Shown here: positions 25,934 through 44,398 of the stretch, piece after piece
How positions within the stretch are numbered: the stretch's first letter is position 1
How the letters are laid out: each line of letters opens with the position of its first letter
Assembly (NCBI GenBank): GCA_023053545.1
Contig: JAKZAN010000006.1
Span: forward strand, 9,456,351 to 9,520,350
DNA from: Lepidurus packardi
Taxonomy: Eukaryota > Arthropoda > Branchiopoda > Notostraca > Triopsidae
DNA: 64,000 nt
Reading direction: 5' to 3'
The notes under the pieces: generated by a model
What the model saw: only the letters and a program-made list of their open reading frames with translations
What the model was told of the DNA's origin: nothing
Database searches by the model: none
Program-made: the position numbers and the translations under genes

Positions 25934-33537
<7,604 letters not shown>

Positions 33538-41519: not shown

Positions 41520-43758
41520 TTAATCCACTTCTTCAATGGTAGGTCCAGAACCTGCTCCTCCCGCACTTGCTCCGCCTGCACCGGGGAAACCACCAGGGGG
41601 TGCGCCGGGTGCACCACCTGCGCTTTGGTACAACTTGGTTACGATAGGATTGCAAATCTTCTCGACTTCCTTCTGCTTGTGTTCAAATTCTTCCTTTTCC
41701 GCCAATTGGTTGGCGTCCAACCACTTAATGATCTCGTTGCATTTGTCCATGATGGCAGTCCTGTCAGCATCAGATAGCTTGTCCTTGAACTTCTCATCTT
41801 CCACTGTGCTCTTCATGTTAAAGCAGTAGGATTCCAAAGAGTTCTTTGCTGCTACGCGGTCCTTCTGCTTCTCATCTTCATTACGGAACTTCTCGGCGTC
41901 AGAAACCTGTAAAACACGAAAAATTATTACTTTCAGTCTACAGCTAAAGAACAATTTTAAGAAAATTTCAAGATGAAGAAACTTACCATGCGCTCAATGT
42001 CTTCTTTAGAAAGACGTCCTTTGTCGTTGGTAATTGTGATCTTGTTTTCTCGGCCAGTAGATTTGTCGGCAGCAGTTACATTCAAGATACCGTTGGCGTC
42101 GATGTCGAAGGTGACTTCAATCTGAGGAACACCTCGTGGAGCGGGAGGAATGCCAGTCAACTCAAACTTGCCTAGCAAGTTGTTGTCTTTGGTCATGGCA
42201 CGCTCGCCTTCGTATACCTGGATCAGTACGCCGGGCTGGTTATCTGAGTAAGTGGTGAAGGTTTGGGTCTGTTTGGTGGGAATGGTCGTATTCCTCTTGA
42301 TCAAGGCCGTCATGACTCCTCCAGCTGTTTCGATACCTAACGACAAGGGGGTGACGTCCAAAAGCAACAAGTCTTGCACAGCTTCGGACTTGTCGCCGTG
42401 CAAAATGGCGGCTTGGACGGCAGCGCCGTAAGCTACAGCCTCATCGGGGTTGATGGATTTGTTGAGCTCTTTGCCGTTGAAGAGGTCCTGCAACATCTTC
42501 TGGACTTTGGGGATGCGAGTGGAGCCTCCCACCAAAACGATATCATGGATGGCCGATTTGTCCATCTTGGCGTCGCGCAAAGACTTTTCGACTGGCTCCA
42601 TGGTGCCACGGAACAGGTCTGCGTTGAGCTCTTCGAAACGGGCGCGAGTGATCGAGGTGTAGAAGTCAATGCCCTCGAACAAAGAGTCAATTTCAATGGA
42701 AGCTTGAGCAGACGAGGACAAGGTTCGCTTTGCGCGTTCGCAAGCAGTGCGCAATCGACGCAGGGCACGTTTGTTGGTAGACAAGTCCTTTTTGTATTTT
42801 CGCTTGAATTCCTGGACAAAGTGGTTGACCATACGATTGTCGAAATCTTCGCCTCCCAAATGGGTGTCACCAGCAGTGGACTTGACTTCAAAAATACCAT
42901 CTTCAATGGTAAGAATGGATACATCGAAGGTACCGCCTCCCAAATCGAAGATGAGCACGTTGCGCTCTCCTCCCACCTAATCAATAAAAAAAAAAACATT
43001 CATAACTAAACACTCAACTTTTCCGAGAACTGGAACTAAAAATATTCGAGTTTTAAAAATCAGACATTGAGCCAATACTACACGCTAATCATTGAGCCGA
43101 AGACCTCTGGTGCGAACCGCGAATGATTCGACTCAAAATTTCATCATAAAAAAGCTCATAAAGAAAAGGCTTAAAAATGGGGTCGGCATTATACCTTTTT
43201 GTCTAAACCATAGGCAATAGCAGCCGCCGTGGGCTCGTTGATGATACGGAGGACGTTCAAGCCAGCAATGGTACCAGCATCTTTGGTAGCCTGACGCTGC
43301 GAATCGTTGAAGTAAGCCGGGACAGTAACGACAGCACTGATGACAGTTTGGCCCAAGTAAGCTTCCGCAGTTTCCTTCATTTTGGTCAGGACCATGGACG
43401 AGATTTCTTCGGGGTAGAAGGTCTTGGTTTCTCCTTTAAAGTCGACTTGGATCTTAGGTTTTCCTCCGTCACTGATGACTTCAAAGGGCCAGTGCTTCAT
43501 GTCGGATTGGACTGTGGCGTCTTCAAATCGTCGACCAATCAAACGCTTTGCATCGAAAACGGTGTTGACGGGGTTCATAGCTACTTGGTTCTTGGCAGCA
43601 TCTCCGATGAGTCGTTCAGTATCGGTGAAACCAACGTAGGAAGGTGTGGTTCGGTTGCCCTGGTCGTTGGCAATGATTTCCACTTTGCCATGCTGGAATA
43701 CACCCACGCAGGAGTAGGTCGTTCCCAAATCAATGCCAATAGCTGGAGCTTTCGCCAT
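41520..43758 (-). CDS. Hsc70: Cytosolic heat shock 70 kDa protein / cognate (Hsc70)
   Basis: ATP-dependent chaperone of cytosol and nucleus. Three coding exons: 43758-43195 (188 codons), 42976-41987 (330 codons), 41906-41520 (128 codons plus stop); 646 residues, usual for HSPA8-type proteins. The N-terminal signature [13 protein letters not shown] opens the ATPase domain; [14 protein letters not shown] (about 197-210) and [14 protein letters not shown] follow. The substrate domain and G/A-rich lid tail end in GPTIEEVD, the cytosolic EEVD motif that binds TPR co-chaperones. Introns are at 42977-43194 and 41907-41986. A CACAG acceptor sits 7 nt above the ATG, so there is also a 5' UTR intron. 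The coding introns suggest a constitutive cognate gene, but two perfect heat-shock elements upstream suggest heat response as well. U14-like snoRNAs lie in the first coding intron and just upstream. ATTAAA overlaps the stop codon; no AATAAA was seen close by. Confidence 0.97.
43048..43157 (-). ncRNA. U14-like C/D box snoRNA, copy 1, in Hsc70 intron 1
   Basis: On the minus strand box C is ATGATGA (43147-43141) and box D CTGA (43063-43060). A terminal stem GAG(C)TTTT (43157-43150) pairs with AAAACTC (43054-43048). Between them is CATTCGCGGTTCGCACCAGA, close to U14 domain A (CATTCGCAGTTT..CACCAGA). It would pair over about 11 nt with an 18S carrying AACCGCGAATG. The stretch before box D (GGCTCAATGT) shares little with the usual U14 guide CCTTGGATGT. 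The 3' end is about 71 nt above the splice acceptor, the distance typical of intron-processed C/D snoRNAs. Identity as snoRNA is good; U14 assignment rests on domain A. Confidence 0.7.
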
Positions 43759-43925
43759 GATTAACCTGTGACAAAGTAGAACACCGGTCAGTTAATCACT
43801 GAGCGTAGAAAGACATACCGAAGACTTAAAGAATCTAAATTACTTCCCCTAATCCAAGCGCTTACCACGTGGTTAGATAGCCTTTGTCACCCTTTCCCAC
43901 TCAACTTCAACGGACAATGGCGGAT

Positions 43926-43941
43926 TTCGAGAATGTTCTCG
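43926..43941 (-). promoter_or_regulatory. Heat-shock element 1
   Basis: TTCGAGAATGTTCTCG contains alternating TTC/GAA/TTC pentamers at exact 5 bp spacing, the HSF1 binding consensus, starting a fourth unit. It lies 168 bp above the Hsc70 ATG, so it is either in the promoter or in a 5' UTR region. Confidence 0.75.
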
Positions 43942-44024
43942 TTGCTGCACCCGCCCATTTACGGCTTTGCATACACGTAACGGACAACCGCGCATTTCTT
44001 TTAGCGTACTAATTACGCATAGGT

Positions 44025-44125
44025 TTTAGCTCAGACGTCGGATCATTACGCACGCTAATCATTAGAAATTAACCTTCTGGCGCGTCCCGCGAATGGTGAA
44101 ATCCGAGTTCTTCATCATAGCCAAA
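44025..44125 (-). ncRNA. U14-like C/D box snoRNA, copy 2, upstream of Hsc70 coding start
   Basis: On the minus strand box C is ATGATGA (44118-44112) and box D CTGA (44034-44031). The terminal stem TTTGGC (44125-44120) pairs with GCTAAA (44030-44025), six pairs including one G-T. The core CCATTCGCGGGACGCGCCAG is again U14 domain A-like. CTAATGATTAGCGTGCG is shared nearly exactly with copy 1 (CAATGATTAGCGTG). It probably sits in a 5' UTR intron: a donor AAAG|GTAAAAAC is at 44208, and acceptors GTGCAG (about 43946, 79 nt below) or CACAG (43766) are available. Domain A has a T to G change relative to copy 1, so it may be the less functional copy. Confidence 0.65.
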
Positions 44126-44381
44126 GCAGAATACACAAATCTAGCCAAGCCGGCTTTCTGGAAGCTTTCACACAAACAAATTGTTGACTGTAAGAGAAAA
44201 GTTTTTACCTTTAATGTTCCGGGGTTTCAATAGTAACTGAAAACTGATCTTGCAAATATTGGCCGAAACACGCGGGTTTCACAGCACGTCCAGTGAGAAG
44301 CCCGTTTACTGCCGGAAAGAACGAACGCTATGCGTGGAGAGACACTTCTCGGCGCTGTCATGTGTTTCATACAGAAAATCC

Positions 44382-44398
44382 TTCTCGAACATTCTCGA
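44382..44398 (-). promoter_or_regulatory. Heat-shock element 2
   Basis: TTCTCGAACATTCTCGA is a run of TTC/GAA/TTC/GA units at exact 5 bp spacing. CCAAT-type sequence (ATTGG on the minus strand) and TGACGT lie just above at about 44409-44418. It is the more likely promoter-proximal element if transcription starts above the 44208 donor. Confidence 0.75.

Follow-up and report, generated by a model that had tools for sequence, protein, structure and literature searches.

The Hsc70 gene of Lepidurus packardi probably hosts two related U14-like box C/D snoRNAs that carry domain A only and serve 18S processing, with the methylation guide of U14 placed separately, on a C/D snoRNA in an intron of RpL15. 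The evidence set out below comprises the anatomy of the two Hsc70 units, the complementarity of their domain A to the 18S rRNA of the same genome, the absence of domain B from both units, and the presence of an intact domain B guide in RpL15.

Results

Two U14-like units in introns of Hsc70

Hsc70 lies on the minus strand of the window (the whole stretch of DNA that was analysed, 64 000 nt), with its start codon at 43758 and a translated protein that ends in GPTIEEVD. A sequence-only reading of the window had proposed two C/D units with the boxes ATGATGA and CTGA in sense orientation to Hsc70, one in the first coding intron and the other in a probable 5'UTR intron. Both units were found where they had been placed, on the minus strand and sense to Hsc70, and their boxes and the splice signals of the host introns were read directly from the sequence (Table 1); the 5'UTR intron is a prediction from its splice signals.

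Table 1. Features of the Hsc70 locus and of the RpL15 unit (window positions unless a contig is named; – denotes the minus strand)
Feature	Position	Strand	Details
Hsc70 coding region	41520..43758	–	Three coding exons, 43758-43195, 42976-41987 and 41906-41520; from translation and splice signals
Hsc70 coding intron 1	42977..43194	–	Contains unit 1; AAAAAG/gtataa...gattag/GTGGGAGG
Hsc70 intron 2	41986-41907	–	80 nt
Hsc70 predicted 5'UTR intron	43766..44208	–	Contains unit 2; ATTAAAG/gtaaaa...gtcacag/GTTAATCATGG; from splice signals only
Unit 1, candidate domain-A-only U14-like box C/D snoRNA	43060..43147	–	ATGATGA 43147-43141; CATTCGCGG from 43125; CTGA 43063-43060
Unit 2, candidate domain-A-only U14-like box C/D snoRNA	44031..44118	–	ATGATGA 44118-44112; CATTCGCGG from 44095; CTGA 44034-44031
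Unit 2 with 7-bp terminal stem	44025..44125	–	TTTGGCT with AGCTAAA; 44125-44119 pairs with 44031-44025; also in the predicted fold
Domain A of unit 1, CATTCGCGGTT	43115..43125	–	Complementary to 18S nt 83-93 (11 Watson-Crick pairs)
Domain A of unit 2, CCATTCGCGG	44087..44096	–	Complementary to 18S nt 85-94 (10 Watson-Crick pairs)
Proposed helix, 5' arm, unit 1	43128..43136	–	9 pairs with 43067-43075
Proposed helix, 3' arm, unit 1	43067..43075	–	At the expected place of domain B, 3 nt before box D
Proposed helix, 5' arm, unit 2	44100..44106	–	7 pairs with 44038-44044
Proposed helix, 3' arm, unit 2	44038..44044	–	3 nt before box D
RpL15-intron C/D unit with U14 domain B guide	C5:6449008-6449078 (L047:5009-5079)	–	Same contig as Hsc70

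The two units measure 88 nt each from box C to box D. The end of box D lies 83 nt from the last base of coding intron 1 in unit 1; in unit 2 the corresponding distance, to the last base of the predicted 5'UTR intron, is 265 nt. Both contain a C'-like TGATTA and a CCAGA stretch, and the blocks that they have in common are box C, domain A, most of CGCRCCAGA, AATGATTAGCGTG and box D, the sequence between these having diverged. Terminal stems had also been reported for both. The stem of unit 2 is 7 bp long; that of unit 1 is weak and was read by eye (GAG-C-UUUU with AAAACUC, with a U-rich loop between the stem and the boxes), and it does not appear in the predicted fold, for which the folded stretch truncated the stem.

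Two observations concern the host gene. Of the four perfect heat-shock-element motifs (TTCNNGAANNTTC) in the entire window, one lies in the 5'UTR intron near unit 2 (43926-43938) and one upstream (44382-44394), and Hsc70, hence its snoRNAs, may be heat-inducible. A second Hsp70 copy, on contig C4, is a single open frame of 671 aa with 94% identity to Hsc70 over the exon that was searched.

The specificity of the units was assessed by pattern searches of the genome (108.6 Mb, 344 contigs), the counts from which are lower bounds. Box C, CATTCGCGG and box D occur together at snoRNA spacing in at least three places in the 108.6 Mb, two of which are the Hsc70 units, and the reversed-pattern control gave none; the third place (C5:2294729) has no CCAGA in the letters shown. 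The pattern CATTCGCGGNNCGCRCCAGA, which was derived from units 1 and 2 themselves, has at least two exact places, both in the Hsc70 gene of the window. Outside that gene, the genome search found no exact or one-mismatch place for it, the next best having two mismatches, and with up to three mismatches there were at least 53 places versus 36 for the reversed control. Box C with CATTCGC alone was found at 80 or more places, versus 30 for its reversed control; the two Hsc70 units and one unit on contig C267 were recognised among them, and none of the 25 inspected of the other 77 has CCAGA within 20 bases.

Domain A is complementary to 18S rRNA

As in U14, both units carry a domain A whose bases can pair with 18S in the region of nt 83-95. 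The complementarities were read directly against the 18S copy L075, which retains a stretch missing from other copies, and the match of unit 1 extends to 12 pairs if one G-U is counted. Shuffled 18-mers, built from the D-side letters of unit 1 and with one G-U allowed, gave a mean of 8.1 pairs against 18S and a maximum of 11. Because shuffles reach 11, the 10-pair match of unit 2 is informative only by virtue of falling on the known site.

At the position where the units have CATTCGCGG, the Rfam consensus has CAUUCGCAGUU. The 18S of this genome reads AACCGCGAATG at the domain A target, and the snoRNAs read CGCGG. The Rfam consensus suits AACUGCGAAUG, as the 18S of yeast and of vertebrates reads. 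At the level of the letters, the differing snoRNA base fits the local 18S, the change being matched on both partners. Unit 1 also contains GGCTCAATG twice, resembling the 18S bases beside the domain A target; the motif is absent from unit 2, and the 5' arm of unit 1 can pair with either copy of it or with 18S.

Domain B is missing from the Hsc70 units

The domain B methylation guide that would precede box D is absent from both Hsc70 units, as seen directly in the bases at that place: neither TTGGCTCAATGT nor ATGATCCGACGT is complementary to ACATCCAAGGAAG of 18S. Comparison of the D-side stretches of both units with rRNA, in which 28S was covered over Rfam model positions up to 2345 (of 3401), gave nothing above shuffles. 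Unit 1 forms 11 pairs (one G-U) with a stretch upstream of 18S and 10 (one G-U) inside 18S, and unit 2 forms nine with the 3' end of 18S. A longer pairing of unit 1 upstream of 18S (13 nt, two G-U) was taken as chance; unit 2 has no counterpart.

These D-side pairings, together with the intact boxes C and D and the C'-like TGATTA, are what would be expected if the units were ordinary or orphan box C/D guides that recognise some other target through the bases before D or D', with CATTCGCGG as a chance or relic match. However, the D-side rRNA matches do not reach box D and are no longer than those attained by shuffled 18-mers, and the block that the units have in common with Rfam U14 consists of domain A and the stretch that follows it, and fits the local 18S. 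We therefore consider it unlikely that these are guides of the ordinary kind.

The place of domain B may be taken by an internal helix, which in both units would join the bases just past box C with bases before box D. The helix stands at an equal distance from box D in the two units and is offset by 1 nt on the other side. By a hand count, all seven alignable pairs are pairs in both units: two are unchanged, three differ on both sides and two differ on one side. With the flanks shuffled, helices this long arose in both units in 8 of 100 000 trials when the same place was required and in 0.26% when any place was allowed; relaxing the limits to 7 and 6 pairs raised the same-place figure to 0.27%. 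The length limits had been set after the helices had been seen. The lowest-energy fold of unit 1 contains a rival 10-pair hairpin and not the proposed helix. Folding relative to shuffles gave z values of -0.42 for unit 1, -1.81 (a mild effect) for unit 2 and +1.06 for the RpL15 unit, a gain in stability that is small in unit 2 and nil in the other two. The comparison of the two sequences suggests that an internal helix replaces domain B.

Covariance scoring and the search for other copies

A covariance search with the Rfam U14 model had been proposed as a check on the units. SNORD14 (RF00016) was the best Rfam family for both, with 21.8 bits for unit 1 (43056-43152) and 24.4 bits for unit 2 (44027-44123), and both scores fall below the gathering cut-off of 64. 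The E values for the full window against 4227 Rfam families were 1.6 (24.4 bits) and 8.4 (21.8 bits), or approximately 4e-4 and 2e-3 for SNORD14 alone after division by the family count. At curated cut-offs, Rfam found one tRNA across the window and nothing else.

Scanned over the genome at the default E, the SNORD14 model found no match, nor did any of the 14 control genomes give one. With the limit on E raised to 10 and 99 of 1839 candidates scored, at least six matches appeared: the unit on C267 (32.7 bits), the RpL15 unit (25.4), L081 (24.6), L082 (21.8), unit 1 (21.8) and L084 (20.5). Unit 2 was absent from the matches listed among those 99 scored candidates, and at this setting 9 of the 14 prokaryote control genomes were positive. 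L081, L082 and L084 were rejected as U14 and taken as chance, since they have no TGATGA in the match or within 15 bases of it. The Rfam score alone is weak proof, because matches of equal height in the genome are without box C, unit 2 was missed and 9 of 14 controls were positive. The anatomy of the units as read from the sequence (box C, CATTCGCGG, the CCAGA stretch, the C'-like TGATTA and box D) is a stronger case for U14 than the score.

Low Rfam scores and the loss of domain B in both units could also indicate that one or both are decayed U14 pseudogenes, the working U14 lying elsewhere or being absent from the assembly, and the distance of unit 2 from its 3' splice site (265 nt) and its shorter domain A match point the same way. 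Against such decay, the boxes, the 88-nt length, domain A and the possible helix have been kept despite the divergence between the units. Searches of the genome that need CATTCGCGG-type spelling found no other unit combining box C, CATTCGCGG, the CCAGA stretch and box D, and the sole U14 noticed with both A-like and B-like domains is the one on C267, probably from a ciliate contaminant. We judge it quite improbable that the units are relics.

The domain B guide lies in an intron of RpL15

The domain B pattern CCTTGGATGTCTGA has at least two exact places in the genome and at least 34 at up to one mismatch, versus 11 for the reversed control. Among the 20 of these 34 places that were inspected, box C at snoRNA spacing and an intact box D occur together in one only, which lies in an intron of RpL15. 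Of the other inspected places only L039 has a TGATGA, 27 bases before the pattern, but its box D reads CTGT; L022, the second exact place, is without TGATGA. A place on contig C267 is also among the 34.

From box C to box D the RpL15 unit spans 62 nt; it lies in an intron of 178 nt, its end 75 nt from the 3' splice site, approximately 3 Mb from the Hsc70 units on contig C5. Its guide, CTTCCTTGGATGT, seen directly in the sequence, forms 13 perfect pairs with 18S, in which C418 stands opposite the base five positions from box D, so that the unit is predicted to guide Cm418. We take C418 to be the U14-guided C462 of human and C414 of yeast. The unit also weakly matches SNORD53/SNORD92 (24.7 bits, cut-off 46). 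The guide is on the RpL15 unit and domain A on the Hsc70 units; the two halves of U14 are therefore on two genes.

The reading of the Hsc70 units as canonical bifunctional U14, combining domain A processing with a guide before box D for the usual 18S cytosine, draws on a host gene shared with vertebrates and on SNORD14 as the best family for both, but is barely tenable given that neither TTGGCTCAATGT nor ATGATCCGACGT pairs with ACATCCAAGGAAG and that an intact guide is present in the RpL15 intron. Of the first interpretation of the units, what stands is that they are U14-like, intronic, in sense, present in two copies and hosted by Hsc70, as in vertebrates; an identity with U14 in the vertebrate sense is not supported, as they have no domain B and score under the Rfam cut-off, and the guide is on the RpL15 unit.

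Discussion

A model for a divided U14

We propose a model of a divided U14 in which expression, processing, rRNA binding, the helix and methylation are all predicted from the features described above. The Hsc70 units would be released by splicing with their introns and then trimmed to the C/D core. U14 domain A assists 18S processing in yeast and vertebrates, and in L. packardi it would pair with the pre-rRNA within the 18S region, near nt 83-94, and so aid early 18S processing. The Hsc70 units would not guide the usual methylation of U14, their guide position instead forming one arm of a helix that closes the domain A loop, and the methylation of C418 would be guided by the separate C/D snoRNA in the RpL15 intron.

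Comparison with known U14 systems

For fly U14, the available text of PMC6315972, citing Yuan et al. 2003, describes a snoRNA that has no domain B; the nucleotide concerned is predicted to be guided by an unrelated C/D snoRNA. A divided U14 is therefore known. The L. packardi units resemble Drosophila U14 in the missing domain B and in the separate C/D guide, and they fit the fly-type definition given in the same text, with domain A present, domain B absent and the guide on a separate C/D snoRNA (PMC6315972). Tetrahymena TtnuCD25 and TtnuCD32 are also described there as U14-like, with domain A and without a canonical domain B. They differ in that TtnuCD32 is reported to have its own upstream promoter element and in that the Tetrahymena rRNA is not conserved where domain B would pair (PMC6315972, available text), whereas in L. 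packardi that site is intact and has a guide.

That vertebrate U14 resides in Hsc70 introns, as the sequence-only reading had stated, is borne out by the available text of two papers, which place copies in introns of hsc70 in human, mouse and rat (PMC7277114) and in introns 5, 6 and 8 of chicken HSPA8 (PMC2653536). Vertebrate U14 (SNORD14, RF00016) is like the L. packardi pair in its box C/D structure, its domain A and its several copies in Hsc70/HSPA8 introns (PMC7277114), but it carries domain B, which the Hsc70 units here do not, and the chicken copies occupy introns 5, 6 and 8 (PMC2653536). Among the matches listed from the open-licence literature, we found no report of U14 in an invertebrate Hsc70: the available text of PMC13228274, on fly snoRNAs in S2 cells, mentions neither U14 nor Hsc70, and in PMC10228655 and PMC8942280 the terms U14/Hsc70 appear in the reference lists only. 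The split itself being known, what we did not find in print among those matches is the Hsc70 host outside vertebrates.

Age of the link between Hsc70 and U14

The pairing of Hsc70 with U14 is possibly older than the split between arthropods and vertebrates, although we lean slightly against such an age. In its favour are the identity of the host gene and the presence of multiple copies in both groups. Coding intron 1 of L. packardi Hsc70, which falls after codon 188 in phase 0 with 564 coding bases preceding it, may coincide with intron 4 of vertebrate HSPA8. Against an old link, the fly U14 locus is at 30E and its host is not known to be Hsc70, whereas Hsc70 is the host in this genome. The chicken copies also lie in other introns (PMC2653536, available text), and the argument that intronic snoRNAs are mobile between broadly expressed hosts (PMC3511168, available text) counts in the same direction. 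We offer as a tentative proposal, about which we are somewhat doubtful, that an old link was followed by a division of the jobs of U14, in which domain A was kept in Hsc70, the guide site became a helix arm and the guide came to lie in RpL15.

The arthropod pair of U14 and Hsc70 offers a test case of whether a link between host and guest has been kept for a very long time or was chosen twice. As both halves of the divided U14 and their rRNA targets are in one genome, the two functions would be separately removable.

Other loci

Several further loci were noticed. The U14 on contig C267 (25483-25569, minus strand; L073, L079) combines domain A with a domain B-like stretch, and besides SNORD14 at 32.7 bits it gives 28.7 bits (cut-off 85) with TtnuCD25, a Tetrahymena family; the contig is probably a ciliate contaminant. 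Contig C6 carries an exact match to mature miR-276, a microRNA not known outside arthropods, which together with the Hsc70 sequence suggests an arthropod genome, perhaps that of a crustacean. Two 18S copies, L044 on C1 and L045 on C16, are without the stretch around the widely kept CAGGTCTGTGATGCCC, which other C16 copies have. Measured against L075, the stretch missing from L044 is 56 nt, and the 28S of L044 matches Rfam only at model positions 24-358. A 55-kb contig, C329 (L046), carries a different type of 18S rDNA, perhaps from another organism. Finally, on the plus strand of the window, positions 31944-32408 contain three successive microRNA-like Rfam matches, all below cut-off, to mir-318 (24.4 bits), mir-9/mir-79 (30.6 bits) and mir-36 (27.2 bits).
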